From the NCBI RefSeq assembly GCF_014204915.1, contig NZ_JACHMH010000001.1:7713501-7777500 (forward strand): a stretch of 64,000 nt of DNA, written 5' to 3'. The stretch is from Crossiella cryophila (lineage in GTDB: Bacteria > Actinomycetota > Actinomycetes > Mycobacteriales > Pseudonocardiaceae). Within the stretch, counting starts at the first letter, position 1; the number at the start of each line of letters is the position of its first letter. The notes below the pieces were generated by a model. That model searched no databases. It worked only from the letters and a program-made list of their open reading frames with translations, and was not told the origin of the DNA. Shown in pieces: positions 35,113 to 64,000 of this stretch. The position numbers were made by a program, and so were the translations under genes.

Positions 35113-36099
35113 TCAGCCGTACAGCACCTGGCCGTCGCCGATCCGGTGCACCCGGGACCGTCGCAGGTCCTGGGTGGCGAAGGTTCGTTGCAGCCAGCGG
35201 TCCTGGCCGTCGTAGCGCGGGGTGAACCCGGTGCGGCCGTGGACGGTGACCCGATTGTCCACAATGGCCAGATCGCCGGGCACCAGGTAGTGGGTCAACG
35301 CGTTGGTGGCGAACAGGTTCTGCAGTTCGGCCATGGCGGTGCGGGCGGACTCGGTCAGCGGGGTGGTGGCCGCGAAGTCGACCAGGACGTCCGGGTCGTC
35401 GGGGGCGCCGGTGAGCACCGCGTGCGGTTCGGTCTCACCGGCCGGCAGGCCGAAGGACGGGGGCGGGGCGGTGACGAATTCCCGGCGGAACAGCACTTCC
35501 CGGCTCTGGTCGCTCAGCAGGTCGTGCACCTGGCGGATGGACGCGGTGCGCAGGCCCGCCTCACGGTCGTGGTCGGCACGCAGGCACAGCAGCAGCACGT
35601 AGTCCGGCCGGTTGTCGTGGAAGGCGTTCTCGTTGTGGAAGGACAGCAGCACCGAGCCCTCGTTGCCCTGGAAGTCCTCGCTGCCGGGCACCGGCACCAC
35701 GTTGTGCACCAGGGCGCCGGACTTCTCCGGGCGGAAGGCGATCACGTCGCCGAGCAGGTGGGTGACCATCATCAGTGTGGCGGCCGGGATGGTGGCGGCG
35801 CGTTGCACGGATCCGCTCTGCGCCGGGGTTTCCGGCACCAGGGACTCGTCCACCGGGAGGCCGCGGATCACCAGCGCGCCACTGGGTCCGGAGTCCCGCC
35901 GGTAGGCGGACAGGGCGCGACGCAAGGAGATCGGCAGCTCGTGCGCGCGTTCCGCGGCCGCACGCACCCAGCCGCGGTCGTCGATGCGTCCGTCCTCAGT
36001 GGACAGTAAGGTGCTCGCGACCTCCTCGACGGCGAGTGCGTTGGCGCGGTTGAGGGTCACTACGCCCGCGGGCGCGTCGACCTCGAGGACCATCGACAT
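35113..36099 (-). CDS. VioC/clavaminate-synthase-like Fe(II)/2-oxoglutarate oxygenase
   Basis: A 328-residue non-heme iron oxygenase. The facial triad is H155-N-E157 (FHNENAFH) with distal H287 (NRVTVHGR); Arg301 or Arg305 should bind 2-oxoglutarate. An HxE rather than HxD triad is the mark of the VioC/AsnO/OrfP group, which hydroxylates the beta or gamma carbon of free Arg, Asn or ureido-type amino acids. The ATG shares its A with the NRPS stop (TGATG). It probably makes a beta-hydroxy amino acid for the peptide; substrate unproven. Confidence 0.88.
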   Translation of the reverse strand: MSMVLEVDAPAGVVTLNRANALAVEEVASTLLSTEDGRIDDRGWVRAAAERAHELPISLRRALSAYRRDSGPSGALVIRGLPVDESLVPETPAQSGSVQRAATIPAATLMMVTHLLGDVIAFRPEKSGALVHNVVPVPGSEDFQGNEGSVLLSFHNENAFHDNRPDYVLLLCLRADHDREAGLRTASIRQVHDLLSDQSREVLFRREFVTAPPPSFGLPAGETEPHAVLTGAPDDPDVLVDFAATTPLTESARTAMAELQNLFATNALTHYLVPGDLAIVDNRVTVHGRTGFTPRYDGQDRWLQRTFATQDLRRSRVHRIGDGQVLYG

Positions 36100-42000: not shown

Positions 42001-43325
42001 AGGCGCTGGATGGTGGCGGTGTCGAACAGCGCGGTGGCGTATTCGAGCTGGCCGGTCAGGGAGCCGTCGGGGTGGGTGGCCATGGCCAGGCCGAGGTCGA
42101 ACTTGGCCGCGTTCCACTCCACCGGCTCCTGCTCGGCACGCAGGCAGCCCAGCTCGGTGGGCTGCTGGCTGGTGAGCTGGAAGACGACCTGGAACAGCGG
42201 GTTGCGGGACGGATCGCGTTCGGGCGCCAGTTCCTCGACGATGCGCTCGAACGGGGTGTGCTGGTGGGCGTATGCCTCCAGCGCGGTCTCGCGGACCCTG
42301 GCGAGCAGGTCCAGGAAGCTCGGGTCGCCCGCGAGGTCGGTGCGCAGCACGACGGTGTTCACGAACAGGCCGAGCAGGTTCTGCGTCTCCTCGCGGTCGC
42401 GGCCGCCGACCGGGCTGCCCACCACCACGTCGTGCTGACCGGCGTAGCGGCCGAGCAGCAGCTGGAAGGCGGCCAGCAGCACCATGAACGGGGTCGCGCC
42501 CTGCGCTCGGCCGAGGGCGAACAGTGGTTCGGCCAGAGTCGCGGGCAGGGTGAAGGTCTCGCTGGCGCCGCGCGGGTCCCGGATCGGGCCTCTCGACCGG
42601 TCGGTAGGCAGCGCGAGCGGGGTGAGACCGTTCAGGGTCCTGCGCCAGTGCGCGAGCTGTTCGGTGAGCTTCGGGCCGGCGAGCTGCTCGCGCTGCCAGG
42701 CGGCGTAATCGGCGTACTGCACCGGGACCGGCGGCAGCGGCGAGGGCATGGCCGCGGCGAAGGTGGCGTAGAGGCTGTCCAGCTCGGCCAGCAGCACCGA
42801 CTCGGACCAGCCGTCGGCGGCGATGTGGTGGGTGGTGATCAGCAGGATCTGGTCCTCGGCGGTGAGCCGGATGAACAGGGCCCGGATCGGGTGTTCGGTG
42901 GCCAGGTCCAGCGGGCGCTGCCCGTCGGCGTCGATCAGCCTGGCGATCCGGGCGGCCGAGTTGGCGCCGCGCAGGTCGGCCTCGCGCCAGGCGATCGGCG
43001 TGGGTGGGTCGATCAGCTGGACCGGTTCGCCGTCCACTGTGGAGTACCGGGTGCGCAGGATCTCGTGCCTGGCCACGATCTCGTCCAGGGCGGCGCGCAG
43101 CGCGGGCACGTTGAGGTGTCCGCGCAGGCGCAGGCGCAGTGGCATCAGGTACTCGGTGCCGCCGGGCTGGATCTGGTCCAGCACCCACAGCCGCCGCTGG
43201 GCGAACGACAGCGGCAGCGCGCCATCCCTGGCGACCGGGGTGATCCCGGCTTCCGGTGCGGCGGGGCTGAGGCCGCGCAGTCTGCGCTGCAGCAGTTCCG
43301 CGCGGGAGATTGAGCTGGTGCTCAT
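36099..43325 (-). CDS. NRPS, two modules plus cysteine-type thioesterase (C-A-T-C-A-T-TE)
   Basis: A 2408-residue synthetase. C1 (about 35-470, HHIAADG at 166-172); A1 (about 490-985) with specificity residues read as DFWNVGMVHK, one conservative change from the Thr code; carrier Ser 1025 (LGGDS). C2 (about 1095-1530, HAILDG) is of a different lineage from C1; A2 (about 1545-2040) reads DLTKIGEVGK, closest to Asn. A second carrier (LGGHS) precedes the thioesterase (about 2160-2400). Its nucleophile motif is GWCGG: Cys2214 replaces Ser, with D2240 and H2377 completing a triad; the codon is TGC at 36684-36686. AGGAAGG precedes the ATG. As the only TE in the cluster it should release the peptide. 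Confidence 0.95.
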   Translation of the reverse strand: MSTSSISRAELLQRRLRGLSPAAPEAGITPVARDGALPLSFAQRRLWVLDQIQPGGTEYLMPLRLRLRGHLNVPALRAALDEIVARHEILRTRYSTVDGEPVQLIDPPTPIAWREADLRGANSAARIARLIDADGQRPLDLATEHPIRALFIRLTAEDQILLITTHHIAADGWSESVLLAELDSLYATFAAAMPSPLPPVPVQYADYAAWQREQLAGPKLTEQLAHWRRTLNGLTPLALPTDRSRGPIRDPRGASETFTLPATLAEPLFALGRAQGATPFMVLLAAFQLLLGRYAGQHDVVVGSPVGGRDREETQNLLGLFVNTVVLRTDLAGDPSFLDLLARVRETALEAYAHQHTPFERIVEELAPERDPSRNPLFQVVFQLTSQQPTELGCLRAEQEPVEWNAAKFDLGLAMATHPDGSLTGQLEYATALFDTATIQRLIGHFTRLLTSIVALPTGRVATLELLTQPERDQLLGKWSGSGRHFPATASLPEVFQAQVRRAPEAIAVRHQGESLTYTELNTRANRLAHELRARGAGPDHLVGVCLDRGPDLVVALLGVLKSGAGYLPLDPAAPTDRLAYLLEDAEVALAITGTPLPGVDSLPVDHPGRPDTDPEPLVAPDNLAYVIYTSGSTGKPKGVQVTHANVLRLLRACEPDFGFGPTDVWTLFHSYAFDFSVWELWGSLLHGGTAVVVPYEISRSPQDFLDLLVSERVTVLNQTPSAFRGLIEAVTQADLSADALSLRTVVFGGEALDVTELAPWFDRFGDQRPELVNMYGITETTVHVTYRPVSRQDLDGDQRSPVGGALRDLRLYVLDPELNPVPIGVPGQVYVSGPGLARGYLGRPALTADRFGPDPYATSPGTRMYRTGDLARYRADGDLEFLGRADNQVKIRGHRIEPGEIEAALTTHPAVDKAVVLAHQSRLVAYFTGAPAELADLREHLGRTLPAYMVPALFVPVDAFPLTVNGKIDHAALPDPDAHRAQHTADQLAPRNPVEQIIAETWAEVLGVPTVGVRDNFFTLGGDSIRAIRVVGALRPRGIDLSVQNLLLHQSVEELARFSETRDQSTVDNAEERRVEAFALLDPADRAALPAGLVDAYPMSMVQAAMVYQMIADSEESPYHNITLLPINDDGPLDLTALRQAAALLGQRHEILRTSFDLNGFSEPLQLVHPAGAIEVGYHDLRDSTDPDAEIQRFITDTRATPFDVGTAPMLRFHAHQTATDRWTFSFIECHAILDGWSHHSLITELMADYRALRAGREPAVPIVHSVRFADYIALEQRSLKENDDREFWRDRLGRFDRVELPEGWSAEPGGDETAYKIGVPIADLEPGLRALAVVAGVSLKSVLFTAHLKALSVLSGSTRFHTGLVCNGRLETSGGETVRGMHLNTVPVGVELAGSTWLDLVRQVFAEEVAVWPHRRFPLPEMQREWGGGASLVETAFTYLDFHVLDARRIESAGVVDVSPNEFALDVWTFPGALFLAARPERISRANGERLARLYRRILELMAADPGGNARDNGLDEVETARLLSFAHGEEAEYPELCLHELFEQQVGRTPDATALRCADGSTVDYSALNARANRIAHHLRSLGVGQESRVGILLRRGPDLVAALLGVLKAGAAYLPLDPTHPAQRLTDLLAETHAEVVLAETATAHLLPGRRLVLLDETDLDHVSTVDLGRTSTPDSLAYIIYTSGSTGTPKGVMIEHRNLVNYVLWCLGAYTPLRGKGSPLYSSVAFDLPVTSIFPALLTGQPVTITADDGTPGIDALVAALEAGEFGLLKLTPSHLAVLNQSLTPEAARRATGRIIAGGEELVRDMVSSWARHAPDTVVDNEYGPTETTVGCSWLEAPANGLEPGVLPIGKPIANTVMRVLDANLELVPVGVAGELYIGGAQLARGYVERPELTAARFIPDPFAAQPGARLYRTGDLARYRADGVLEFAGRVDHQVKIRGYRIELGEIEAALHRQVPLQDVIVRVHTAPSGDKELIAYLVPAEDSTLDIAALPAKLAEILPDYLVPQAFLELDELPLTSNGKVDTARLPKPELAKVSARFQAPRTAVENILARAWAEALKRGRVGVHDSFTELGGHSLSVMRIIVKLREEHGIRLSFRDFYEHRTIAELARVLGDNSAEQSEVDSLDAVVWLRRGGSRAPLFCVHPGSAHWFAQLAEHLDPDQPVAAFEWPGLSRRCPAPESVHHIAELNLAQLRRLQPSGPYRLLGWCGGSQITTEMARRLRAEGEQVTFMLLDPALDSYERANMHEFMARFRRAEHLLAELATASAEQVPALQEQAVAVLELIVDDGRIDPPVPGDEFWPSRVRVWRELLQTRLDYRHEPYPGPLHLIAGDELAAGEHEVAVGVNFVDYTQRWAELATGGLDVHRVGGNHLGVLRAPQVGEVARVLTRLMATPEDAQKDVN
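40951..40968. repeat. 18-bp palindrome, site in NRPS
   Basis: CTACTGACCGGACGGTAG within the two-module NRPS gene; related sites at 41943-41960 and 42590-42607. Confidence 0.55.
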
Positions 43326-43490: not shown

Positions 43491-44729
43491 ATGAGCGAAG
43501 AGGTGCCGCCGCTGCGGCGTAACCGGGACTTCCTGCTGTTGTGGTCGGGTTCGGCGGTGTCCAGCCTCGGCGCGAACGCCTCCAGCGTGGCCTATCCGCT
43601 GCTGGTGCTGGCGCTGACCGGTTCGCCGGTGGACGCCGGGGTGAGCGGGTTCATCGCGCTGCTGCCGCAACTGGTGTTCCAGGTGCCTGCCGGGGCGCTG
43701 GTCGATCGGTGGAACCGCAAGCGGGTGATGATCTGGTGCGACATCCTGCGCGCACTGGCCATCGGCACCCTGGCGGTGGCGCTGGTGAGTGATTCGCTGA
43801 CGTTGCCGCACATCCTGGCGGTCGGGTTCACCGAGGGGGTGCTGACCGTGACGTTCAAGATCGCGGCGGCGGCCGCGGTGCCGAATGTGGTGCATCCGAG
43901 TCATCTGACCTTCGCGTTGTCCCGCAACGAGGCCAGGGAGCGGGGCGCGGCGATGCTGGGTCAGCCGCTGGGCGGGGCGTTGTTCGGGCTGGGCCGGGCG
44001 GTGCCGTTCCTGTTCGACGCGGTGACCTACCTGGTGTCGCTGGCCTCGTTGTTGTTGATCCGCACCGATTTCCAGGCCGAGCGCAAGCCGCGCAAGCTGG
44101 AGCTGGGCGCCGGGATCGCCTGGTTGTGGCGGCAGCCGTTCCTGCGGATGACCACGTTCCTGGTGGCAGGCAGCAACTTCCTGTTCCGCGCGCTGTTCCT
44201 GGTGGTGATCGTGATCGCCGCGGACTACGGCGCCTCGCCGACGCTGGTGGGCGTGATGTTCGGACTGGCCGCGGTTGGCGGGGTGCTGGGTTCGCTGGCC
44301 GCGCCCGCGCTGGAGCGCAGGCTGTCGATGAAGGTGGTGGTGGTCGCGGCGAACTGGGCCTGGGGCCTGCTGGTGCCGATGGTGTTGCTGGTGCCCAATC
44401 CCTATGTGCTGGGCGCGGTGTACGCGTTGATGTGCTTTGTCGGTCCGGTGTGGAATGTGGCGATCTCGGCCTATCAGATCGCGGTGACGCCGGATCACAT
44501 CCAGGGCCGGGTGCTGGGGGCGGCGGGGATGATCGCGTTCGGCGCGGTGCCGTTGGGGTCGTTGCTGGGTGGGTTCGCGCTGGAGTGGATCGGGGCGCGG
44601 GCGACGGTGTGGGCGTTGGCGGTGTGGATGATCGGGCTGGCGATCGTGGCCACGGTGAGTCCGGCGGTGCGTAACGCGCCGAGTCTGGATTCGGCACGGC
44701 CGGCGCGGGAGTCGGTCGCGGTCCGCTGA
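43491..44729 (+). CDS. MFS transporter (EntS-like exporter)
   Basis: A 412-residue major facilitator of the MFS_3/EntS branch with twelve predicted membrane segments. FLLLWSGSAVSSLGANASSVAYPLLVLALTG is segment 1, and DRWNRKRVM is the conserved loop between segments 2 and 3. It is the only rightward gene inside the leftward NRPS array, so it interrupts the operon. Export of the peptide, hence self-protection, is the likely role. No clear Shine-Dalgarno site. Confidence 0.9.
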   Translation: MSEEVPPLRRNRDFLLLWSGSAVSSLGANASSVAYPLLVLALTGSPVDAGVSGFIALLPQLVFQVPAGALVDRWNRKRVMIWCDILRALAIGTLAVALVSDSLTLPHILAVGFTEGVLTVTFKIAAAAAVPNVVHPSHLTFALSRNEARERGAAMLGQPLGGALFGLGRAVPFLFDAVTYLVSLASLLLIRTDFQAERKPRKLELGAGIAWLWRQPFLRMTTFLVAGSNFLFRALFLVVIVIAADYGASPTLVGVMFGLAAVGGVLGSLAAPALERRLSMKVVVVAANWAWGLLVPMVLLVPNPYVLGAVYALMCFVGPVWNVAISAYQIAVTPDHIQGRVLGAAGMIAFGAVPLGSLLGGFALEWIGARATVWALAVWMIGLAIVATVSPAVRNAPSLDSARPARESVAVR

Positions 44730-44784: not shown

Positions 44785-47025
44785 TCAGCGAGGATCGGCC
44801 ACCGCGACGAAGCGGAGTTCGGCGGTGTGCGGTTCGCGGTTGTGGTCGGGCAGCCAGGCCTGGTCCGGGGTGGGCAGCATCTCGGTGATGGTGAGCTGCC
44901 CGGCCGGGTCCTTGCGGGCCAGCCGGCGGACGGCCTTGGCCAGGATGTTGAGGTAGACGGGGCTGTCGAAGTCGACGTAGAACGGGCGGGGTTCGGCCGG
45001 GGAGGTGACGAAGACGAAGCGGGGCAGGGTGTTCGCCTCGCGCCATTGGCGGAGGCGGACGAAGCGGCGGGGTTCGGACCTCTCCTCGGCCGCGGTGACC
45101 TCGGCGGCGGGGAAGCGCCAGGTCTCGCGGGTGACGACCAGGGTGTCGACGGTGATCCGCGGGGTGTGCGGGGCTTCCGGGACCAGGCGGAACAGGTCCA
45201 TGGCCAGGGTGGTCAGGACGTGGCCGAAGACGTCGATCACCGGGAACCGGGTGCCGTCGGGCAGCACGGCCCGCAGGGTGTCGTGCCGTTCGACCTGGAT
45301 GTCGGCGCTGGCGTGGGTGTGTGGGCGGGATGGGTCGGCGGTGTGGTCGACCAGGGCGACGTAGTGGTCCTCGGGGCGGATCAGGGTGTGCCGGATCCTG
45401 GCGGAGAGTCGGGAGCGGTGTTCCTTGGGCAGCAAGGGAAGCAGGCGGGGCCCGGGGTGGTCGCGAGTGGTGCCGGCGAGCAGTTCGGACTGGTCCGGGT
45501 GCTGGTTGACGAACAGGGAGGCGCCCAGGGTGTTGGTGGCGATGTGCAGTTCGCCGAGCACCAGGTGGTCCTCGGTGAGCAGGATGTCGGGGCTGAGGTA
45601 GCGGGCCGCGGTCCAGCCGGGGGCGCGGTTGCCGAAGGCCACCGACACCCGGTGTTCGATGTCCTTTGTGGACCGTGCGACCCGGTTGCCGCTGCCCGGG
45701 TTGAGGATGATGGCCCAGCGGCGCTGGAACTCCTTCTGCAACTCGGTCGCGTCCTCGGCCGCCGCGCCGTGCAGGATGGGCATGCAGGCGAACCAGAACT
45801 CGGCCAGGTTGACCGGGCCGTCGGCGGCCAGGCGGTCGAAGACCTCCTCGGCGCGTTGCAGGACCCGGTCGGCGAGGTTGGCGGTGAGCCAGGTGGCGCT
45901 GGTCAGGAACAGGGACAGCGGGGCCAGTGCGTCCAGGACCCGGTGTCCCGCGGTGGCGGTGGCGCTGCGCCGGCAGTCGGAGTAGACCAGTGCCCGGCAG
46001 GGCGCGGTGCTCGCGGACTTCTCGCGGACCGCGGCGGTGTCGGTGAGGGCGACGAAGTCCTGTTCCAGTTTGGTGAACGCGGCGGCCAGGGTGTCCGCGT
46101 CGGTGGCGGCGGCGACCTCGGCTCGGCCACGTTCCAGGGTGTCCAGGGCGACGATCGCCTGGGCCCGTTGGGGTTCGTCCTCCACTGTGGACAGCCAGGT
46201 GCGCAGCCAGCGTTCCGGGTGGGCGTCGGCGGGGATCTCCAGGCGCCACACCAGCCAGCGGCGGCCGACCAGGTCCGCGAGCAGCGCGGGCACGTCCAGG
46301 TCGGGGTTGGCCTGTGCCAGGTGGTGGGCGGAGCGGGTGCCGTCGCACTGGGTCAGCAGGCGATGCTGGTCCGGGGTGATCGGCTGCGGTGGGCGGCTGG
46401 GGATGGTGACCGCGTCCGGTCCGATGTGGACGAACGGGACGCGGCGGGGCGCGATCCACTGGCGCAGGCCGGGTTCCAGGGTGCGGGCGAGGGTGTCGAT
46501 GGCCCAGCTGGCGAAGTAGACGTTGGTCTCCGCGATCAGCGATTCGCCGGGCTCGACGGTGACGCCGGTCTGGGTGAGGTCCCAGCGGCCCCAGCCGACC
46601 GGGCCGAAGAAGCCGATGGTGTCGTTCTTGACGCAGAACCGTTGCCAGTAGTGGGCGATGAGTTCCTCGCGCTGGCGGGGCATGCTGGTGCGGCCGGCCG
46701 CGGTGGGGGTCCAGTCCAGGAAGGGTTTGATGCCGGTGGTGAGCACCGGGCGGTTCTGCCAGGCGACCGCGGCCCGGAAGTCGGGCCGGGCCGCGATGTC
46801 CTGGAGGTCCAGCGCGGTCTGCACCGCGGCTTCCTGGTAGGTCTCCTCGAATCCGGTCCAGTCCACTCCGGTGAGCCGGTCGTCCCGGTCGAACTTGTCC
46901 GCGGCCTGGGCCAGGCCGGCGGGTGCGAGCCGGAGCACCCCGTTGGCGGGGAAACCGGGGCCGCGCAACGCGAACTGGTCCCACAGTCGCCAGGTCTGGT
47001 CCAGGCGCACCTCGTCCGCACCCAT
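44785..47025 (-). CDS. LanB-like protein (lantibiotic dehydratase N-domain), copy 2
   Basis: A 746-residue protein of the Lant_dehydr_N family, the part of class I lanthipeptide dehydratases that uses aminoacyl-tRNA. Family landmarks are WRLWDQFALRGPGFP at the N-terminus, a mid-protein LVYSDCRRSATAT and near the end PRFVFVTSPAEPRPFYVDFDSP. The region that normally reads R-x-T-P-F-G is KNDTIGFFGPVGWGRW. There is no SpaB_C elimination domain, so it is the size of glutamylation-only LanB or PEARL proteins. ATG is 5 nt after the carrier-protein stop. It is a close paralogue of the gene at 49635; nucleotide identity is high around 46600-46750. Confidence 0.85.
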   Translation of the reverse strand: MGADEVRLDQTWRLWDQFALRGPGFPANGVLRLAPAGLAQAADKFDRDDRLTGVDWTGFEETYQEAAVQTALDLQDIAARPDFRAAVAWQNRPVLTTGIKPFLDWTPTAAGRTSMPRQREELIAHYWQRFCVKNDTIGFFGPVGWGRWDLTQTGVTVEPGESLIAETNVYFASWAIDTLARTLEPGLRQWIAPRRVPFVHIGPDAVTIPSRPPQPITPDQHRLLTQCDGTRSAHHLAQANPDLDVPALLADLVGRRWLVWRLEIPADAHPERWLRTWLSTVEDEPQRAQAIVALDTLERGRAEVAAATDADTLAAAFTKLEQDFVALTDTAAVREKSASTAPCRALVYSDCRRSATATAGHRVLDALAPLSLFLTSATWLTANLADRVLQRAEEVFDRLAADGPVNLAEFWFACMPILHGAAAEDATELQKEFQRRWAIILNPGSGNRVARSTKDIEHRVSVAFGNRAPGWTAARYLSPDILLTEDHLVLGELHIATNTLGASLFVNQHPDQSELLAGTTRDHPGPRLLPLLPKEHRSRLSARIRHTLIRPEDHYVALVDHTADPSRPHTHASADIQVERHDTLRAVLPDGTRFPVIDVFGHVLTTLAMDLFRLVPEAPHTPRITVDTLVVTRETWRFPAAEVTAAEERSEPRRFVRLRQWREANTLPRFVFVTSPAEPRPFYVDFDSPVYLNILAKAVRRLARKDPAGQLTITEMLPTPDQAWLPDHNREPHTAELRFVAVADPR

Positions 47026-47030
47026 CGGTC

Positions 47031-47279
47031 TCACCCCTGTGCCGGTTCGAGGTCCAGCACGCCGGCCAGGTCGATCGGCGAGGGGTAGGCGAAGACCAGC
47101 GCCACCGGCACCTCGGCGCCGAGGGCGTCGCGCAGGCGGGCGGTGATCTGGAAGGCGGCCAGGGAGTCGCCGCCCGCCTCGAAGAAGTCGCTGGCGGTGT
47201 CCAGGTGATCGTCGCCGAGCGTCTCGCGGTAGATCGCGGCGATCAGTTCGGGCACGTCCACCTTGAGGTCGTTGGTCAT
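47031..47279 (-). CDS. Free-standing peptidyl/acyl carrier protein
   Basis: An 82-residue PCP-type carrier. The phosphopantetheine Ser is in FFEAGGDSLAAF (about residue 39), followed by VALVFAYPSPIDLAGVL, the usual helix III region. ATGA overlap with the PLP enzyme upstream and a 5-nt gap to the LanB-like gene downstream place it in a coupled unit with a free adenylation domain. It should carry an amino acid activated in trans. Confidence 0.93.
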   Translation of the reverse strand: MTNDLKVDVPELIAAIYRETLGDDHLDTASDFFEAGGDSLAAFQITARLRDALGAEVPVALVFAYPSPIDLAGVLDLEPAQG

Positions 47280-48181
47280 GGCTGTCCTTTCGCTGTGGTG
47301 TTTCCGCCGGAGACGATCGCGACGGCGGTGCCGGTCCACCCGGCGCGCAGTGCGCCCGCGAGGGCCACCGCGCCGCTGGGTTCGGCGTTGACCCCGTTGC
47401 GCCGCAACAGGTCGAGTGCGTGGCGGACGGCCTCGTCGGACACGCCGATGAGGTCGTCCACCCGGTGCTGGATGATCGGGAACGGCACCTCGCCGGGACG
47501 TTGGCCACGCAGGCCGTCGGCGATGGTGTCCGGTGGCGGCAGTTCGACCGGGCCGCCCGCGGCGAGTGAGCGCGCGTACCGGCGGCAGGCCGTGGGTTCC
47601 ACGCCGATCACCCGGATGTCCTTGCCCAGTGCGGCCAGGCAGGTGCCTGCCAGGAGGCCGCCACCGCCGGTGGGGACGAAGATCGTGTCGGTGTCGGGTG
47701 CGTCGGCGAGGACTTCCAGGGCGACCGTGCCCGCGCCCGCGACCACCAGGTCGTGGTCGGAGGAGGGCAGCAGGAACGCGCCGATGTTGGCGGCCAGTTC
47801 GCGGGCGTGTCGTTCGCGGTCGGCCACTCCCCCTGGCACGGCGACGATGTCGGCGCCGAGTTCCCGGATCCGGGCGGCCTTGACCGGGCTGGCTCCGGCG
47901 GCCATCACGACGGTGACGGCGACGCCGAGCCGGGCGCCCAGGGTGGCCACCGCGATGCCGTGGTTGCCGGAGGATCCGGCGACGACCGCGCTGACCCCGT
48001 TGCCCAGCAAGGCGTTGGCCGCGCCGCGGAGTTTGAAGGAGCCGCTGCGCTGGCGGTGTTCGGCCTTGAGCCGCAGGCCGGGCAGGCAGGGCAGCAGTGG
48101 GGTGTGCCGGATCTGGGTGGCGATCCGGTCCGCGGCGGCGGCGACGTCGGCGTGGCCGAGTTGCAGGGCGGGGGTGGTCAT
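47276..48181 (-). CDS. PLP enzyme, serine/threonine dehydratase-like (fold type II)
   Basis: A 301-residue fold-type II PLP protein. The Schiff-base Lys is K50 in SGSFKLRGAAN; AGSSGNHGIAVA binds the substrate carboxylate, and PTGGGGLLAG binds the cofactor phosphate. Family members deaminate Ser or Thr to keto acids; some relatives racemise Ser or do beta-replacement. Its coupling by ATGA to the adenylation domain and the carrier protein suggests it makes or removes an unusual precursor. A housekeeping ilvA role is unlikely in this setting. Confidence 0.88.
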   Translation of the reverse strand: MTTPALQLGHADVAAAADRIATQIRHTPLLPCLPGLRLKAEHRQRSGSFKLRGAANALLGNGVSAVVAGSSGNHGIAVATLGARLGVAVTVVMAAGASPVKAARIRELGADIVAVPGGVADRERHARELAANIGAFLLPSSDHDLVVAGAGTVALEVLADAPDTDTIFVPTGGGGLLAGTCLAALGKDIRVIGVEPTACRRYARSLAAGGPVELPPPDTIADGLRGQRPGEVPFPIIQHRVDDLIGVSDEAVRHALDLLRRNGVNAEPSGAVALAGALRAGWTGTAVAIVSGGNTTAKGQP

Positions 48182-49638
48182 CGGGCCAGTGCCTTGCGGT
48201 CGGTCTTTCCGGTGCTGGTGGTGGGCAGGCGGTCGATGCGGGCGAACCGGCGCGGCATCAGGTGCGGCGGCAGGGTTTTCCCGAGGTGGGCGCGCAGGTC
48301 GGCGTCGGTGATGTCGGCGAGGTCGCCGGTGAGGTGGGCGATCAGGTGCACGCGGCCGCGGTCGTCGGTGGCGGCGGTGATCACCGCGCCGGTGACCGCG
48401 GCATGGGTCAGCAGGGCGGACTCGACCTCGGCCGGGTCGACCCGGTAGCCGCGGATCTTGATCTGCCGGTCCACCCGGCCCAGGTATTCCAGGATGCCGC
48501 CCTCGGTGCGGCGGGCCAGATCGCCGGTGCGGTACATGCGGGAGCCGGGTTCGCCGAACGGGTCCGGGCGGAAGCGGTCCGCGGTGAGCCCTGGGCGATC
48601 CGCGTAACCCCTTGCCACGCCAAGGCCGCCGAGGTGGATCTCGCCGATGGTGTTGGGCGGCACCGGGTTGCCTTGATCATCGAGGAGGTGGGCGGTGACG
48701 CCGTCGACCGGGACGCCGATGTGGTCGGCGCTGAGGTCCGGGACGACGGGGACGCGGTGGCGGGTGGAGGTCATGGTGCACTCGGTCGGGCCGTACTGGT
48801 TGACCAGGCTGCCCGCGATCAGGTCCCGGCCGCCCGCGGCGAGGAACGGGCGCAGGGATTCCCCGCTGGCCACCACCAGGCGCAACCGGCGCAGGTCGGC
48901 GGCGATCTCCCGGTGCTGAGCCAGGAAGGTCAGGAAGGACGGGGTCACGCTGAGCACGGTGTCGACCTCGTAGCGCCGGATCACCTCGGCGAACTCGTTG
49001 GCGCGCAACAGGGACTCCCGCGGTGCGAGGACCAGTCGGCCGCCGGCGAGCAGTGGCGCGAAGATGTCCCGGATGGAGGCGTCGTAACCCAGCGGGGCCA
49101 GTTGCACGGCGGTGGTGTGCGGGCCGAGGTCGTAGTCCTTGGCCAGGAATCGCAGGTAGGAGTCCAGGCCACGGCGTTCGATGAGCACCGCGTTGGGGGT
49201 GCCGGTGGAGCCGGAGGTGTGGCTGACGTAGGCCAGCGACCGGGGTGACACGGCGGGCAGCGGTGCGATGGCCGGGGTGAGCCGGTCCAGCAGGGTGGTG
49301 CGGCCGGGGAAGGGCAGCTCGACCTGACTGGTGGTCAGCAGATGCCTGGTGTGTCCACTGTGGAGCATGGCGGCCAGGCGCTGGGGTGGCTGGTCGATGT
49401 CCAGGGTGAGGAACGCGCCGCCGGCGTGCAGCACGGCGGCCATCGCGACCACCGCGTCCACTCCCCTGGGCACGGCGATGGCGCAGACCTGTTCCGGGCG
49501 CAGCCCTTCGACCACCAGGCATTGGGCCAGTCGGAGGATCCGGTTGCGCAGTTCGCCATAGGACACGGTGCGGTCCGGGGTGATGATCGCGGGGGTGTGC
49601 GGTGGGTTGGCCAGCAGCTCGTCCACGAAACCGGTCAT
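48178..49638 (-). CDS. Free-standing adenylation domain
   Basis: A 486-residue A domain with all core motifs: YVSHTSGSTGTPNAV (A3), NQYGPTE (A5), YRTGDLARR (A7), GRVDRQIKIRGYRVDP (A8) and STGKTDRKAL with the catalytic Lys (A10). The A3 loop ends PNAV rather than PKGV. Specificity residues read approximately DARSVSQMT; Asp235 indicates an alpha-amino acid, but I match no known code. It overlaps the LanB-like stop and the PLP-enzyme start (ATGA at both). Probably loads the free carrier at 47031-47279. Confidence 0.92.
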   Translation of the reverse strand: MTGFVDELLANPPHTPAIITPDRTVSYGELRNRILRLAQCLVVEGLRPEQVCAIAVPRGVDAVVAMAAVLHAGGAFLTLDIDQPPQRLAAMLHSGHTRHLLTTSQVELPFPGRTTLLDRLTPAIAPLPAVSPRSLAYVSHTSGSTGTPNAVLIERRGLDSYLRFLAKDYDLGPHTTAVQLAPLGYDASIRDIFAPLLAGGRLVLAPRESLLRANEFAEVIRRYEVDTVLSVTPSFLTFLAQHREIAADLRRLRLVVASGESLRPFLAAGGRDLIAGSLVNQYGPTECTMTSTRHRVPVVPDLSADHIGVPVDGVTAHLLDDQGNPVPPNTIGEIHLGGLGVARGYADRPGLTADRFRPDPFGEPGSRMYRTGDLARRTEGGILEYLGRVDRQIKIRGYRVDPAEVESALLTHAAVTGAVITAATDDRGRVHLIAHLTGDLADITDADLRAHLGKTLPPHLMPRRFARIDRLPTTSTGKTDRKALAR

Positions 49639-51938
49639 GAGGCACCGCCGGTCTGGTCGACCGCGACGAAGCGGAGTTCGGAGGTGTAGCGCTGACCCTG
49701 GTCGTCGGTGAGCCAGGCCTGTTCCGGGTTGGGCAGCATCTCGCTGACCGTGATCCGGCCGTCCGGGTCGGTGCGGGCGAGGCGGCGGGCGGCCTTGGCC
49801 AGGATGTTGACGTAGACCGGGCTGTCGAAGTCGACGTAGAACGGCCGGGGTTCGGTGGGCGAGGTGACGAAGACGTACCGGGGCAGGTCCAGTTCCTCCC
49901 GCCACTGCCGGGCCTTGACGAACCGGCGGGCCTCGCTCTTCTCCGCGGTGAACTCCAGCTTCGCGGCGACGAACCGCCAGGTCTCGCGGGCGATGATCAT
50001 CCGGTCGACGGTGATCCGCGGCGAGTGCTCGGCGTTGGTGCGCAGGGAGAAGCGGTCCATGACCCGGTTGGTGAGCGCGTTGCCGAAGACGTCCAGGAGC
50101 GGGAACTCGGCGCCGTCGGGCAGGATGGCGAGCAGGCGGCCGTCCCGGTCGAGGACCTCGATGTCGGCGCTGTTGAGGGCGCGCGGGTTGTGCGGGTCGG
50201 CGGTGTAGTCGACCATGCCGGCGAAGTAGTCCTCGGGACGCACCAGGGCCGGGCGGCTGCGGGTGGACCAGCGTGGCGGCTGTTCCTTGGGCAGCATGGG
50301 CATCAGCCGCGGGCCGGGGAAGTCCATTGTGGTCTCGGCGAGCAGCTCGGCCATGTCCGGGTGCTGCATGGCGAACAGGGAGGCGCCGACGGTGTTCATG
50401 GCCACGTGCAGTTCGCCGAGCACCAGCTCGAACTCGCCGCGGGCCACCGCGTCGGCGTCCTCGGCCAGGATCAGCACGTCCGGACTCACGTATCGGGCAA
50501 TATTCCAGGCATCGCCTGGTTCGCCGAAGGCCGCCTCCACCTGGTCTTTCAGGTCCACTGAGGACAGTCGGATCCGGCGGGCGCCGTCGGGGGCGTTGAT
50601 GATCCGGGTCCAGCGCTCGCGCAGTTCGGCCTGGATGCGGTCGATCTCGGCGGTGGAGTCGGGGTGTGGCACGGGCAGGCATTCGAACCAGAGCGCGCCC
50701 AGGTCGACCCGGCCGTGCTTGGCGAGCAGCTTCTCGTAGGCGGTGCGGATGCGGGCGGTCATCGACTCGGCGAACCGGTTGGTCAGCCAGCGGGCCGCGG
50801 TCAGGCACAGGGCCAGTGGGGTGAGTTCGGCCAGCACGGCCGAGCCCAGGGTGGCGGTGGCCGAGCGGCGGCAGTCGGAGTAGACCAGTGAGCGGCAGGG
50901 CGCGGTGCGGCTGTTCTTGGCCCGGACCGCGGCGGACTCGGTGAGCGCGGCGAAGTCCTGTTCCAGCGCGGCCATCGCCGCGGACAGCGCGTCCGCGTCA
51001 CCATAGGCGTGGTGGATGCGTTGTTTGGCCTGTTCCAGCACGGCGAGCTTGGCCAGGGCGCGGTCGCGGACCGCCGGGTCGCCGACTCGCTCCATTGTGG
51101 ACCGCAGATGCTGCTCGGGGTGTGCGGTGGTGGGGACCTCCAGGCGCCACACCGCCCAGCGCCGCTTGGTCAGGTCCTCGATCCCGGCCAGCACCTCGTC
51201 CTCGGTGCGGCCGAGCTGGGCGGCCAGGTCGACCGGGGAGCGGGTGCCGTCGCAGCGGGACAGGAGTTCGCGCTGGTCCGGGGTGATCGGCTGGGGCGGG
51301 CGGCCGGGCAGGTGCACGGTGTCGGCGGTGATCCGGACGAAGGACACCCGGCGCGGCGGGGTCCAGCGGCGCAGGGCGGGGTCCTCGCCGAGCACGCGGG
51401 CGAGGGTGTCGATGGCCCAGCTGGAGAAGTACACGGTGGACTCGGCGATCAGGCCCTCGCCCGGGTCGACCGTCACGCCTTCCCGCGCCAGGTCCCAGCG
51501 GCCCCAGCCGACCGGGCCGAAGAAGCCGATGGTGTCGTTCTTGACGCAGAACCGCTGCCAGTAGTGCGCCACCAGTTCCTCCCGCTGGCGGGGCATGCTG
51601 CTGCGCCCGGCCGCGGTGGGGGTCCAGTCCAGGAAGGGCTTGATGCCGGTGCCCAGTACGGTGCGGTTCTGCCAGGCCACCGCGGCACGGAAGTCGGGCC
51701 GGGCCGCGATGTCCTGGAGTTCCAGGGCGGTCGCTACCGCGGCCGTGCCGAACTCCTCCTCGAACGCGGTCCAGTCCACACCGGACAGTGGGGTGCCGCG
51801 GTCGAACTTGTCCGCGGCCGCGGCCAGGCCGTCCGGGGCCAGCCGGAGCACCCCGGCGGCGGGGAAGCCGGGGCCGCGCAGGGAGAACTGGGACCACAGC
51901 CGCCAGCCGCCAGTGGGGAGGAAGACGTTGTCGGACAT
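49635..51938 (-). CDS. LanB-like protein (lantibiotic dehydratase N-domain), copy 1
   Basis: A 767-residue paralogue of the gene at 44785, with the same landmarks: WRLWSQFSLRGPGFP, KNDTIGFFGPVGWGRW, QPITPDQRELLSRCDGTRS, LVYSDCRRSATAT and PRYVFVTSPTEPRPFYVDF. It likewise lacks an elimination domain. In lanthipeptide systems the domain transfers Glu from tRNA-Glu to Ser/Thr; in PEARLs it adds an amino acid from tRNA to a peptide C-terminus. ATG at 51938 is chosen over an earlier in-frame start at 51974 that would overlap the carbamoyltransferase. No lanthipeptide precursor or LanC cyclase is nearby. Confidence 0.85.
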   Translation of the reverse strand: MSDNVFLPTGGWRLWSQFSLRGPGFPAAGVLRLAPDGLAAAADKFDRGTPLSGVDWTAFEEEFGTAAVATALELQDIAARPDFRAAVAWQNRTVLGTGIKPFLDWTPTAAGRSSMPRQREELVAHYWQRFCVKNDTIGFFGPVGWGRWDLAREGVTVDPGEGLIAESTVYFSSWAIDTLARVLGEDPALRRWTPPRRVSFVRITADTVHLPGRPPQPITPDQRELLSRCDGTRSPVDLAAQLGRTEDEVLAGIEDLTKRRWAVWRLEVPTTAHPEQHLRSTMERVGDPAVRDRALAKLAVLEQAKQRIHHAYGDADALSAAMAALEQDFAALTESAAVRAKNSRTAPCRSLVYSDCRRSATATLGSAVLAELTPLALCLTAARWLTNRFAESMTARIRTAYEKLLAKHGRVDLGALWFECLPVPHPDSTAEIDRIQAELRERWTRIINAPDGARRIRLSSVDLKDQVEAAFGEPGDAWNIARYVSPDVLILAEDADAVARGEFELVLGELHVAMNTVGASLFAMQHPDMAELLAETTMDFPGPRLMPMLPKEQPPRWSTRSRPALVRPEDYFAGMVDYTADPHNPRALNSADIEVLDRDGRLLAILPDGAEFPLLDVFGNALTNRVMDRFSLRTNAEHSPRITVDRMIIARETWRFVAAKLEFTAEKSEARRFVKARQWREELDLPRYVFVTSPTEPRPFYVDFDSPVYVNILAKAARRLARTDPDGRITVSEMLPNPEQAWLTDDQGQRYTSELRFVAVDQTGGAS

Positions 51939-51958: not shown

Positions 51959-52879
51959 TCAGGCCGTGCACCATTCCAGGACGGCACGTGCGCTGTGGTA
52001 CTTGTTCTCCGCCTGCGTGAACGCGATGCTGGCCGGCCCGTCGAGCACCTCGGCGGTGACCTCCTCGCCGCGGTGCGCGGGCAGGTCGTGCATGAACACC
52101 GCGCCGGGGCAGGCCGCCAGCAGCGCACTGTCCACCTGGAACGGTGCGAAGATCTCCCGCCAGTCCGGGTCGGGTTTGCTGGTGCCGGTGGTCTGCCAGC
52201 GGGTGGTGTAGACGACGTCGACCTCGGGCAGGTCGGCCAGGTCGTGCCGCTGTTCGATCCGGGCGCCGCCGCGCTTGGCGCTGATCTCGCCGCGTTCGAC
52301 GAAACCGACCGGCACGCCGTAGCCGGGTGGCGTGCGCAGGTGCAGTTCGGTGCCGGGGAAGCGGGGCAGGGCCAGGGACAGCGCGGTCGCGGTGTTGTTG
52401 CCCTCCCCCACGTACAGCACCCGCAGCCCGTCGACCCGGCCGAAGTGGCGGGTCAGCGTGGTGAGGTCGGTGAGCGCCTGGGTCGGGTGTTCCTCCGCGG
52501 TCATCGCGTTGATCACCGCCATCCGGCGCTGGGCGGCGTAGGCGCGGAGTTCCCGTTCCGGCCCTGCGGTGCGGGCGACCAGGACGTCGAGCATGCCGGA
52601 GAGCACGGCGCCGGTGTCCTCGACGGACTCGCCGGTGTTCTCCTGGAGGTCGCCGGGGCCGTAGGTGATCAGCTGGGCGCCCAGGCGCAGCGCGCCGGCG
52701 GAGAAGGCGGTGCGGGTGCGGGTGGAGGTGCGGCGGAACAGCACCGCGACCACCTGATCCCGCAACGGTTTCGTGCCTTCGAGCGCTCCCGCGGAATATT
52801 CGGCGCCGCGGTGGACCAGCCAGCGCAGGTCCTCATCGGACAGATCGTCGATGGAGATCAGGTGTCGTCGGTCGGACAT
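51959..52879 (-). CDS. Ornithine/aspartate carbamoyltransferase family enzyme, atypical
   Basis: A 306-residue carbamoyltransferase. The carbamoyl-phosphate motif STRTR (52-56) and HPTQ (131-134) are intact. The ornithine-binding signatures differ: HCLP is HDLP (264-267), so the conserved Cys is Asp, and the SMG loop is replaced by VVYTTRWQTTG (222-232), closer to aspartate carbamoyltransferase. It likely carbamoylates an amine other than ornithine. Adjacent to a diaminobutyrate aminotransferase, a carbamoyl-diaminobutyrate product is the natural hypothesis. GGAG lies before the ATG. Confidence 0.88.
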   Translation of the reverse strand: MSDRRHLISIDDLSDEDLRWLVHRGAEYSAGALEGTKPLRDQVVAVLFRRTSTRTRTAFSAGALRLGAQLITYGPGDLQENTGESVEDTGAVLSGMLDVLVARTAGPERELRAYAAQRRMAVINAMTAEEHPTQALTDLTTLTRHFGRVDGLRVLYVGEGNNTATALSLALPRFPGTELHLRTPPGYGVPVGFVERGEISAKRGGARIEQRHDLADLPEVDVVYTTRWQTTGTSKPDPDWREIFAPFQVDSALLAACPGAVFMHDLPAHRGEEVTAEVLDGPASIAFTQAENKYHSARAVLEWCTA

Positions 52880-52889: not shown

Positions 52890-54185
52890 TCACCGGTTCC
52901 GGGTGCTGTGCAGGGCGTCGCGGAGCACGTCGAGGCCGCGGTCGAGCCGGGCGATGTCGATGGTCAGCGGCGGCAGCACCTTGATCACCTCGTCGTGGCG
53001 GCCGCACAGCTCCACGATCAGGCCGTGCTCGAAGGCGTGCCGCTGCACCAGGTCCGCGCGCTCGGGCCCACCGGCGCCGGCGAGGTCGATGCCCAGGGCC
53101 ATGCCGCGGCCGCGGGTGACGATGGCCGGGTCGAGGAGTTCGGTGCGGAAGCGGTCCAGGCGGCGGGATGCCACGGCCAGGTCGGTGTGGAACTTGGTCT
53201 GCCGCCACAGGTCCAGCGCGGCGGTGGCGGCGACGAAGGCGAGCTGGTTGCCACGGAAGGTGCCGGTGTGCTCGCCCGGTTCCCACACGTCCAGGTCGCG
53301 GCGGAACAGGGTCAGCGAGAGCGGGAGGCCGTAGCCGCCGATGGACTTGGACACGGTGACCATGTCCGGCACCACGCCCGCGTGCTCGAAGCAGAAGAAG
53401 GTGCCGGTGCGGCCGCAACCGGCCTGGATCTCGTCGAAGATCAGCAGGATGCCGTGCCGTTCGGTGAGCGCGCGCAGTGAGCGCAGCCAGTCCGGGGAGG
53501 CCGGGTAGATGCCGCCCTCCATCTGCATGGGTTCCACGATCACCGCGGCCGGGATCTCGAAGCCGGAGGACGGGTCGGCGAGCAGGCGTTCCAGGTAGCC
53601 GACCGAGTCGAATGTCCCCTGTGGACTGTCCTCATAGGGCACGAAGGTGACGTCGGAGGGCCCGATCCCGCCCGCCCGGCGGGCCCGGCGGCTGCCGGTG
53701 ACGGCCAGGGAGCCGCGGGACATGCCGTGGTAGGCGCCGGTGAAGGCGACCACGCCGGTGCGGCCGGTGGCCTTGCGGGCCAGTTTGAGCGCGGCCTCGA
53801 CCGCGTCGGTGCCGGTGGGCCCGCAGAACTGGATCTTGTAGTCCAGGTCGCGTGGTCGCAGCACGACCTCGGCGAAGGTGTTGAGGAACTCGCGCTTGGC
53901 CACGGTGTGCATGTCCAGGCCGTGCACGATGCCGTCGGCTGCCAGGTACTCGGTGAGGCGGCGCTTGATGAAGTCGTTGTTGTGCCCGTAGTTCAGGGTG
54001 CCCGCGCCACAGAAGAAGTCGATGAAGACCCGGCCGTCCTCGCCGTGCAGTTCGGCGCCCTTGGCGCGGTGGAAGACGATCGGGAACTTCCGGCAGTAGC
54101 TGCGCACCTCGGATTCGAGGTCCTGGAACACCGAGAAGTCGGTGGCCGCGGTGTGCGTGCCGGGGTGATGCGCGGTGACGGTCAT
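52890..54185 (-). CDS. Diaminobutyrate--2-oxoglutarate aminotransferase (EctB-like)
   Basis: A 431-residue class III PLP aminotransferase. FFCGAGTLNYGHN, CGPTGTDAVEAALKLARKATGR, FDEIQAGCGRTGTFF and the Lys in TVSKSIGGYGLPL match EctB/DABA aminotransferases that convert aspartate semialdehyde to L-2,4-diaminobutyrate. No ectA or ectC is present, so ectoine is not the goal. The gene follows the large NRPS by 26 nt with AGAGGA before the ATG, indicating supply of diaminobutyrate to the peptide. Confidence 0.92.
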   Translation of the reverse strand: MTVTAHHPGTHTAATDFSVFQDLESEVRSYCRKFPIVFHRAKGAELHGEDGRVFIDFFCGAGTLNYGHNNDFIKRRLTEYLAADGIVHGLDMHTVAKREFLNTFAEVVLRPRDLDYKIQFCGPTGTDAVEAALKLARKATGRTGVVAFTGAYHGMSRGSLAVTGSRRARRAGGIGPSDVTFVPYEDSPQGTFDSVGYLERLLADPSSGFEIPAAVIVEPMQMEGGIYPASPDWLRSLRALTERHGILLIFDEIQAGCGRTGTFFCFEHAGVVPDMVTVSKSIGGYGLPLSLTLFRRDLDVWEPGEHTGTFRGNQLAFVAATAALDLWRQTKFHTDLAVASRRLDRFRTELLDPAIVTRGRGMALGIDLAGAGGPERADLVQRHAFEHGLIVELCGRHDEVIKVLPPLTIDIARLDRGLDVLRDALHSTRNR

Positions 54186-54211: not shown

Positions 54212-57200
54212 TCAGCGCTCGCCGGGTTCGGCCAGCAGAGCGGCGACTTCTTCGTCGGAGAGCTGGTCGATCTCCGCCTCGATGGCCTGCAGCACCGCCT
54301 CGGCCAGGGTGGCGACGGTGGTGGCCTCGAACAGGCGGCGCAGCGGCAGATCGATGCCGAAGACCACGTTCAGCCGGGCCAGCACGCGGGTGGCGAGCAG
54401 GGAGTGCGCGCCGAGGGCGAACACGTCGTCCTCGACCCCGATCCGGCTCAGTCCCAGCACCTCGCCCCAGATCCCGGACACGATGTGCTCGGTCGGGGTT
54501 CTGGGCGCCAGGTAGGGGCTTTCGAGGTCGGGGCGGTCGATCTCGGGCTGCGGCAACGCCTTGCGGTCGACCTTCTTGCTCGGGGTGAGCGGCAGTTCGG
54601 GCAGGAACGTCCACAGGCCGGGCATCATGTACTCGGGCAGTCGTTCCGCGGCGAACGTACGCAGGTCGGTGATCTCCGGGGTCCGGTCCTGCGGGACCAG
54701 GTAGGCGACCAGTCGCCGGTCGCCGGGTTGCACGTCCCTGGCCACCACGACCGCGGCGCGGACCGCCGGGTGCTGGGCGAGCACGGCTTCGATCTCGCCG
54801 AGTTCGATCCGGAAGCCGCGGAGTTTGACCTGCTGGTCGATCCGGCCGAGGAACTCGATGGTGCCGTCGGGCAGGTAGCGCACCAGGTCGCCGGTGCGGT
54901 ACAGGCGGGCGCCGGGTTCCGCGCCGAACGGGTCGGGGACGAACTTCTCCGCGGTCAGCTCGGGTCGCCGGTGGTAGCCGCGGGCCAGCCGGATACCGCC
55001 GAGCAGCAGTTCTCCTGGGACGCCAACGGGTACCGGGTCGCCGTGTCTGTCCACAATGTACGCTCGGGTGCCGGGCACCGGGCGGCCGATGGGCAGGGCG
55101 GCTTCGGCGCGGGCCTCGTCCGGCACGGTGGCGATGGGGTGCAGCAGGCAGGTGACGGTGGCCTCGGTGGGGCCGTAGTTGCACAGGAACCGGCCGGGCA
55201 GACCGGTCGCGGCCCACTGGCGGGCGTCCTCGACGGTGACCACGTCGCTGCCCACGTTCATCAGCCGCAGACCGTGCAGGCGTGGGTCACCGGGCTGGAG
55301 GGTGCGGAGGACCTCGCGGTAGTAGGCGGGGGTGATCTCCATGATGGTGATGCCGTGTTCGTGGATCCGGTCGGGCAGTTCGGCCGGGCTCCAGAACAGC
55401 GGGTCGGCCACCACGATGCTCGCGCCGACCAGCAGGGTGGCCGCGATCTGGTCCATGGCCACGTCGAAGGTGAGCGCGGACAGCAGTACCACCCGATCGG
55501 TCGGTCGGATGTCGTACTGCTGGGCGATGATCCGGCAGTGGTGGGCGTAGGAGCCGTGTTCGATCAGCACGCCCTTGGGCCGGCCGGTGGAACCCGAGGT
55601 GAAGATCATGTAGGCCAGGTGCGCCGGGGTGGCCAGGGGTTCGGGGTTGTCCGCCGGACGCTGGGTGATGGCTTGGGCTTCGCGGTCGAGCCGAACGACC
55701 GGTCGGTCGGTGGTGAAGTGCCGGTCGCCGGTGGTGATCACCAGGTGTGCGGTGGCGTCGGCGAGCATGAAGGTGAGCCGGTCGGCCGGGTGGTCGGGGT
55801 CGATCGGGACGTAGGCACCGCCGACCTTGAGCACGGCGAGCAGGGAGATCACCGCGTCCAGGCCGCGGTCCAGGCAGACCGCGACGATGGTCTCCGGGCC
55901 GACGCCGTGCGCACACAGGTGGTGGGCGAGTTGGTTGGCGCGGGCGTTGAGTTGGGCGTAGCTGAGTCGTTCGGGGCCGAAGGACACCGCTTCGGCCTCG
56001 GGGTGCTGGGCCACGCGCTGCTCGAACAGGGCGGGCACGCAGGCCGGGACTTCCTCGGGGCCGGGCGGGTTCCACTCGTGCCGGAGCTGGTGCTGCTCGG
56101 ATTCGGTGAGCATGACCAGGGAGTCCAGGGGCAGGGCCGGGTTGGTGACGGCGTGGTGGAGCAGTCCCAGGTAGTGCCCGGCCATCCGCTGGATGGTGGA
56201 CTCGTCGAACAGCGCGGTGGCGTACTCGAACAGTCCGGTGAGGCTGCCGTCGGCCCGCCGACCGAGGGACAGGGTGAGGTCGAACTTGGCGGTGTGCCAG
56301 GGGGCGCGCACGCGTTCGACGGTCAGGCCGGACAGGCGGAGCGGGGTGCGCTGGGCCTGTTGCAGCTCGAACATGACCTGGAACAGCGGGTTGCGGGAGA
56401 GGTCGCGTTCGGGCTGGAGTTCGTCCACCAGGCGCTCGAACGGGAGGTCCTGGTGAGCGAACGCACCGATCACGTGCTCGCGGACCTGGTCGATCAGCGC
56501 GCCGAAGCTGGGCACACGGGTGAGGGATTCGCGCAGCACCACGGTGTTGAGGAAGGCGCCGAGCATGTCCTCGACCTCGGCCCTGGTGCGCCCGGCGACC
56601 GGGGTGCCGACCGCGACGTCGGACTGGCCGGTGTGCCGGGCCAGCAGCACGTGGAAGGCGGCCAGCAGCACCATGAACGGGGTGGCGCCGTGTGTGCGGG
56701 CCAGGGTGTCGACCTCGGTGGTGGTGTCCGCGGGGATCTCGATGGCCAGCAGGTCGCCGCGACTGTCCCTTGTAGATGGACGCGGGCGGTCGCCGGGGAG
56801 TTCGAGCTGGGGCAGGTGGGCGAGGCGGTCGCGCCAGTAGGTCAGGTGGCGTTCGGGTTCGGGTCCGGTGGACCAGTTGTGTTGCCAGGCGGCGAAGTCC
56901 GCGTACTGGACCGCGGGTGCGGCTGGCGGGTTGCCGCCGGTGGTGCGGGATTCGTAGTAGTGGCCGAGGTCGCGGGTGAGCACGTCGATGGACCAGGCGT
57001 CGACCGCGATGTGGTGGGCGGTGAGCGCGATCAGGTGCTCGTCCGGGCGGATGCGGATCAGCAGGGCCCGGAACGGGATCTCCTGGTCCAGGGCGAACGG
57101 CCGGGCGGTGTCGGCGTGCACCAGGGTTTCGGCCTGGGTGACGGCTTCCTGGTAGGGCAGCGTGGTCAGGTCGATCGGGTGCAGGTCGAGGCTGGTGGCC

Positions 57201-63790: not shown

Positions 63791-64000
63791 ATGACCGAGG
63801 AGAACGACGAGGCCGTGTACCGCGTCGTGCGCAACGACGAGGAGCAGTACTCGATCTGGCGGGCCGACCGGGAACTGCCGCTCGGCTGGCACGCCGAGGG
63901 CACCGAGGGTTCCCGGCAGGACTGCCTGGACCACATCGGCCGGGTGTGGACCGACATGCGCCCGCTGAGCCTGCGCCGCCGCATGGAACAGGTGAGCTGA
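63791..64000 (+). CDS. MbtH-like NRPS accessory protein
   Basis: A 69-residue MbtH family protein with the signature NDEEQYSIWRADRELPLGWH, then the CLDHIGRVWTDMRPLSLR end. These small proteins bind and stabilise adenylation domains. GGAGG precedes the ATG. It ends exactly at the window edge (TGA at 63998-64000) and diverges from the large NRPS it probably serves. The cluster may continue to the right. Confidence 0.96.
   Translation: MTEENDEAVYRVVRNDEEQYSIWRADRELPLGWHAEGTEGSRQDCLDHIGRVWTDMRPLSLRRRMEQVS

Follow-up and report, generated by a model that had tools for sequence, protein, structure and literature searches.

The broad idea of a PEARL acting in an NRPS pathway is known. SnaE, the LanB-like enzyme of the threopeptin (sna) pathway, stands alone in an NRPS-PKS cluster without a precursor or an elimination domain, and deletion showed it to be needed for the addition of threonine (Yu and van der Donk 2024, PMC11212132). 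According to the same paper, some two thousand NRPS/PKS clusters contain genes with this annotation. The RiPP PEARLs TglB, BhaB and AmmB and those of the lymphostin type likewise consist of PF04738 alone but extend a carrier peptide, and the contact residues of BhaBCTrp and TglB have been published (PMC11962472, PMC12945691). Class I lantibiotic dehydratases share the Lant_dehydr_N family and the tRNA-contact residues with the enzymes described here. On the nonribosomal side, δ- and β-carboxyl linkages exist in ACV and microcystin (PMC7147772, PMC2174460). An earlier note on the DNA described here had put forward two LanB-like genes in an NRPS operon as its best candidate for an undescribed system, a claim that is too wide given the publication of SnaE in 2024. 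What is new is the combination of paired PEARL-type enzymes with an acid-type stand-alone adenylation (A) domain and a peptidyl carrier protein (PCP) in a conserved cassette, on which we found no paper in the open-access literature searched.

Organization of the locus

The window, a stretch of 64,000 nucleotides with a G+C content of 70.7%, comes from the 10.06 Mb, single-contig genome of Crossiella cryophila. It contains an NRPS operon on the minus strand, transcribed in the order NRPS 1, diaminobutyrate transaminase, ornithine-carbamoyltransferase (OTC)-like enzyme, LanB-A, A domain, PLP enzyme, PCP and LanB-B; NRPS 2 follows LanB-B, separated from it by an MFS gene on the opposite strand (Table 1). 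The two LanB-like open reading frames named in the earlier note are confirmed and their products are 61% identical over residues 11-761. The coupling to NRPS parts described there is equally borne out, as the cassette itself carries an A domain and a PCP and is flanked by NRPS genes on both sides. An alternative ATG start at 51974, further upstream, would extend LanB-A to 779 residues, and this numbering is used below. Neighboring cassette genes overlap by 4 bases, except at one junction where 5 bases separate them, leaving no space for a precursor gene between LanB-A and LanB-B. Neither a LanC nor a LanM-like protein is found among those window proteins that were annotated, a part of the total, whereas a LanM-like gene is present in 22 related loci.

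Table 1. Features of the NRPS operon and its surroundings in window coordinates
Feature	Position	Strand	Basis
TauD-type dioxygenase (GntD/VioC-like)	35113..36093	-	PF02668; NCBIfam below cut-off
NRPS 2, two C-A-T modules and thioesterase; codes DFWNVGMVH / DLTKIGEVG	36099..43325	-	Pfam
MFS transporter	43491..44729	+	PF07690
LanB-like paralogue B (LanB-B), PEARL-type by sequence, 746 aa	44785..47025	-	PF04738 only; same ten sites as LanB-A
Stand-alone peptidyl carrier protein	47031..47279	-	PF00550
PLP enzyme, fold type II, serine/threonine dehydratase or racemase-like	47276..48181	-	PF00291; PRK08246 best NCBIfam match, below cut-off
Stand-alone NRPS adenylation domain, code DARSVSQMT, Arg239	48178..49638	-	PF00501; TIGR01733 above cut-off
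LanB-like paralogue A (LanB-A), PEARL-type by sequence, 767 aa	49635..51938	-	PF04738 only; ten PEARL sites
Ornithine-carbamoyltransferase-like enzyme	51959..52879	-	PF02729, PF00185; NCBIfam matches below cut-offs
Diaminobutyrate-2-oxoglutarate transaminase	52890..54185	-	TIGR02407, PRK09264 above cut-off
NRPS 1, three C-A-T modules, C domain first; codes DLTKVGEVG / DAWQVATID / DVDEMGNVT	54212..63595	-	Pfam
MbtH-like protein, ends at window edge	63791..64000	+	PF03621

The cluster probably extends past the right edge of the window. Just beyond it lie an SbnA-like (PALP) and an SbnB-like (OCD-family) gene (contig 7777506-7779523; L283:507-2524), which would presumably provide diaminopropionate, and LuxR-type regulators are found farther out. 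At the other end, window positions 257-6417 hold a RiPP-like locus with YcaO, radical SAM and nitroreductase genes and two CAAX-type proteases.

The NRPS codes suggest, in order, Asn-like, Gln-like, a residue without assignment, Thr and Asn-like. The second C domain of NRPS 2 has ECHAILDGWS (residue ~1230) in place of HHxxxDG and directly follows the Thr-type A domain. This order recurs with an ECHAILDGWS-type C domain in one other locus (L078), and a similar motif, TDCHVVLDGWS, is present in another (L075). The domain may be of the dehydrating (modified amino acid) type.

Distribution of the cassette

A scan of species genomes located 128 stretches encoding relatives, and the best 80 of these, representing 65 loci, were kept. 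The order LanB, A domain, PLP enzyme, PCP, LanB is uninterrupted in 39 of the 65 loci, so the gene set that the earlier note had thought worth looking for elsewhere is not a chance assembly. The remaining 26 comprise three LanB-PLP-LanB loci, three without a called PCP and 20 with other or partial arrangements, many of them cut by contig ends. Most relatives among the best 80 of 128 stretches are from Streptomyces; the LanB-A copy of Crossiella sp. S99.2 is 96% identical to ours. In two of the three LanB-PLP-LanB loci, both from Amycolatopsis, the same A domain (63% identical) is located elsewhere on the contig beside another NRPS gene, where it adjoins an 81-aa gene recognized by Pfam as a carrier in one of the two genomes. 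One copy of the cassette resides on a plasmid, with NRPS, P450 and transporter genes upstream.

The LanB-like proteins of at least 690 residues fall into two clades, with 53 upstream and 51 downstream members including the two from the window, and three more unassigned. The split has a support of 0.999 in one FastTree run, and the LanB pair therefore represents an old duplication.

Recurrent neighbors in the related loci of the best 80 stretches are LanM-like proteins (22), PPTases (21) and S51 peptidases (20), many in Streptomyces and some in other genera. One LanM-like protein beside the cassette, for which Pfam matches were obtained (L037:2727-5825), contains DUF4135 and LANC_like. DxHxxN and VDxE-type motifs are present in all 22 LanM-like neighbors, and the CHG zinc motif that we searched for in none of the 22.

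Residue pattern of the LanB-like pair

PF04738 (Lant_dehydr_N) is the sole Pfam match of the two LanB-like proteins (E values of 6.6e-33 and 1.1e-54), and no NCBIfam model matches either of them at E 0.001. The PF14028 elimination domain is absent from all seven cassette-region proteins by Pfam, which agrees with the domain content given in the earlier note. A sequence search for relatives of solved structure returned nothing of weight. Residues ~196-250 of the LanB-A profile bear a weak likeness to PqqD (PDB 5sxy, E 0.28), too weak to count alone; this stretch may correspond to the RRE-like portion of LanB proteins.

PEARL sites were taken from the published BhaBCTrp and TglB positions and placed by alignment and spacing; lymphostin-like PEARLs served as stand-ins for BhaB and TglB in the residue comparison, which these two enzymes enter by their published sites. 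Ten sites could be placed in LanB-A: R33, Y138, R141, D499, E521, H523, R663, R710, E766 and R768. All ten are kept in both window paralogues, which at the sequence level supports the earlier suggestion that these relatives of LanB are of the tRNA-using type and coupled to a carrier of the NRPS; a loss of all tRNA- and adenylate-binding residues, which would have spoken against it, is not what we find. Among 104 cassette-clade LanBs of at least 690 residues from the best 80 of 128 stretches, both window copies counted, Y138, R141, D499, E521, H523 and R663 are each invariant, R710 is found in 103, E766 and R768 in 102, and R33 in 98, the other six having gaps. This retention of the ten sites in both clades makes it highly improbable that one paralogue alone is catalytic and the other a partner binding the PCP or the tRNA, even if such a division of labor would suit the separation of the two clades, their pairing in 39 of 65 loci, and the presence of clade-specific Arg and Glu sites.

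The comparison covered eight of the published ATP-site residues of BhaBCTrp and three of the published contacts to the tRNA 3'-CCA end. Among the former, Arg34, Asp558, Glu575, His577, Arg715, Glu813 and Arg815 are matched in our proteins and Lys763 is replaced by Arg710. Among the latter, Tyr205 and Arg208 correspond to Tyr138 and Arg141, and Gln201 is replaced by Leu134. The lost Gln contact, the Lys-to-Arg exchange and the otherwise well kept ATP site could point to ATP-grasp-like amide ligases that have abandoned tRNA for free amino acids or amines. We regard this as improbable, with the CCA contacts Tyr138 and Arg141 present in 104 of 104 proteins.

We used two yardsticks to read the pattern: four PF04738-only proteins from one Salinispora locus, which is putatively lymphostin-like by its gene context, and a pair of LanBs from the C. 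cryophila genome that contain both PF04738 and PF14028. The lymphostin-like proteins differ at position 521 in two of four cases and have Lys at position 710 in all four. The two true LanBs have Gly and Ser at position 523, Pro at 663 and Asn at 710, and one of them differs at 521. They share R33, Y138, R141, D499, E766 and R768 and, in one case, E521 with our pair. With these six or seven shared, only three or four of the ten sites discriminate. Lys also occupies position 710 in the eleven other LanB-like proteins compared, whose surroundings are of the NRPS, PKS or a similar kind, and Arg in this position is peculiar to the cassette clade within that comparison. The pair resembles RiPP PEARLs in its domain content and in most ATP and tRNA-CCA sites, and differs from them in having Arg for Lys763 and a PCP in place of the carrier peptide.

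Because the three or four discriminating sites fit PEARLs, ATP-dependent carboxylate activation is the likelier chemistry, and on this residue pattern the LanB-like pair very probably has PEARL-type activity. Of the two chemistries offered in the earlier note, peptide extension of the PEARL kind fits the data, and glutamylation of Ser/Thr does not. We had also considered that the two proteins are split halves of a class I lantibiotic dehydratase, which would transfer Glu from Glu-tRNA to Ser or Thr on the carrier and leave elimination to the PLP enzyme or a LanM-like protein. PF04738 is indeed the glutamylation domain family, the tRNA-contact residues are common to LanB proteins, and LanM-like neighbors occur in the 22 loci mentioned above. 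R663, K/R710 and His523 are however present here and absent from the two true LanBs of the same genome, PF14028 is missing from the cassette region, and the code of the stand-alone A domain differs from the Ser/Thr type. We consider a split dehydratase quite improbable and rejected it, since the few discriminating sites speak against it.

The stand-alone A domain and its partners

Arg239 of the stand-alone A domain is found in all 54 relatives from the best 80 of 128 stretches, the window's own copies excluded, and 49 of them have the same DARSVSQMT code as the window protein. None of 50 modular A domains from the same loci, four of them from the window, contains Arg239. It is equally absent from 46 distinct A domains taken from this genome together with its relatives, from 38 of the own genome and from 26 of relatives, sets that overlap, hold a few fragments and are biased toward high-scoring domains. 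The code columns were checked against DFWNVGMVH from one modular A domain, which we take to be a Thr-type code.

Arg239 is seen in A domains with side-chain loading of aminoadipate, Asp or Glu. In this residue our A domain would resemble the side-chain-activating domains for Asp/Glu in microcystin synthesis and those of ACV synthetase; it differs from them in being stand-alone and placed beside PEARLs. Codes of side-chain-activating A domains are not printed in the literature searched, including passages from PMC7147772, PMC11253843, PMC6562525, PMC2174460 and PMC3640908. The partners of the A domain are similarly well conserved: SFKxRGA and SSGN motifs are present in 55 of 56 members of the PLP enzyme cluster and a GGxS-type site in 52 of 52 members of the PCP cluster, two in each case being the window's own copies.

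A proposed route from side-chain loading to tRNA-dependent extension

The sequence family, the residue pattern, the conserved cassette, the odd A-domain pocket and the co-occurrence of these genes were computed directly; from them we infer the carboxylate substrate, the use of tRNA, the order of steps, the amino acid identities and the roles of each paralogue and the PLP enzyme. We give the following model for the cassette an even chance of being correct. The stand-alone A domain would activate an acidic, Asp-like amino acid by its side-chain carboxyl and load it onto the stand-alone PCP. Loading via the side chain would leave the α-carboxylate free, and one or both LanB-like enzymes may phosphorylate this group with ATP. 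The amine of an aminoacyl-tRNA would then attack the activated carboxylate, such that the starter grows in a direction closed to thioester chemistry. The first C domain of NRPS 1 would accept the side-chain acyl group, and the fact that NRPS 1 opens with a C domain fits a starter delivered by the stand-alone PCP. The acidic amino acid may be supplied, or its configuration determined, by the PLP enzyme.

If this is true, a single carrier protein would bring together the tRNA chemistry of the ribosome and the thioester chemistry of NRPS. An Arg239-type loading A domain beside a LanB-like gene would then predict branched or bidirectional peptides in clusters annotated with a 'lantibiotic dehydratase', and two-step aminoacyl-tRNA extension on a PCP might serve as a tool.

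Like sna, the locus has stand-alone LanB-like enzymes in an NRPS cluster. The sna pathway, compared here by the description of SnaE, combines one PEARL with a ureido-forming C domain (EHHxxHDG), whereas our cassette has two paralogues with a stand-alone A domain, PCP and PLP enzyme. A ureido route as in sna was rejected, since EHHxxHDG is found in 0 of 55 C motifs from the window and the cassette loci. It is possible, if rather unlikely, that the PEARL-type ligases act on another free carboxylate, whether on the peptide after its release, on a modified side chain or on a free diacid, and that the A domain and PCP perform a separate step. SnaE, whose carboxylate substrate arises through ureido formation and which may work on free molecules, provides a precedent (PMC11212132). 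In our loci, the missing EHHxxHDG motif speaks against this reading, as does the position of the A domain and PCP between the two LanBs in the 39 uninterrupted loci of the best 80 stretches and their retention on the same contig in two of the loci where they lie elsewhere.

A second glycyl-tRNA synthetase, of the fused α-β type, is encoded in the window (18804-21713), the dimeric type being located at 2.75 Mb. The fused enzyme is also present in a sister genome (G583), but in two others (G584, G586) the stretch fetched contains the genes from either side of it and not the enzyme itself. Both of these genomes have NRPS genes of matching size, and G586 also has the cassette. We therefore do not tie this synthetase to the cluster and rejected it as a dedicated aminoacyl-tRNA synthetase.

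LanB-like genes near other NRPS

For the model of side-chain loading followed by PEARL extension, we asked which partners accompany LanB-like genes more widely. Sampling drew on Streptomyces and the family around it, on the phylum as a whole and on the order of Crossiella, and a hand-picked part of the genes was given context, mostly of 20 kb and of 32 kb for three plasmids, with ten cassette loci added. Clustering of the LanBs at 52% identity yielded 32 groups, reported here as raw counts. Within the fetched stretch, 12 groups have an Arg239 A domain as a partner, one a VinN-like A domain and two a ureido-type C domain; 17 of the 32 have none of these three. Arg239 is found in 26 of 133 A domains of the surveyed stretches, those of the cassette counted. 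One locus (L076) combines a 35%-identical LanB with a methylaspartate mutase, an ACP and an A domain with the code EVRHTALLA (Glu235/Arg239).

We tentatively propose as a rule that PEARLs of NRPS pathways are accompanied by loading that keeps an α-carboxylate of the starter unit free, a state reached independently through Arg239 A domains with side-chain activation, VinN-like A domains or ureido-forming C domains. The cassette would then represent a two-PEARL, tRNA-dependent 'reverse arm' on a PCP, in an assembly line that could grow in both directions, with thioesters serving one arm and aminoacyl-tRNA the other. The survey supports the rule of a carboxylate-freeing partner but does not prove it, and the 17 groups stand against it; they also favor the alternative of another free carboxylate.

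VinN-type loading of 3-methylaspartate in macrolactams similarly places an aspartate-type unit on a stand-alone carrier, with an A domain of a different type, and the vicenistatin pathway is not known to include a LanB. A VinN-like A domain accompanies one group of LanB-like genes (L127-L130, L248, L249), with the motif in four of six loci. Its best PDB match is 3wvn, which we take, like 3wv4, to be VinN. No modular NRPS was seen in the fetched stretches of this group, and one member (L127) has a gene of ACP size along with PALP and OCD-family genes resembling SbnA and SbnB.

Tandem LanB-like pairs are found beside NRPS modules in seven further loci (L215-L218 and L231, also L221 and L237), with the code DAPHVGGFA in five of the seven and Arg239 in none. 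In six others (L223, L226, L228-L230, L232), a single protein of ~1,840-2,030 residues combines a LanB-like domain with A and C domains.
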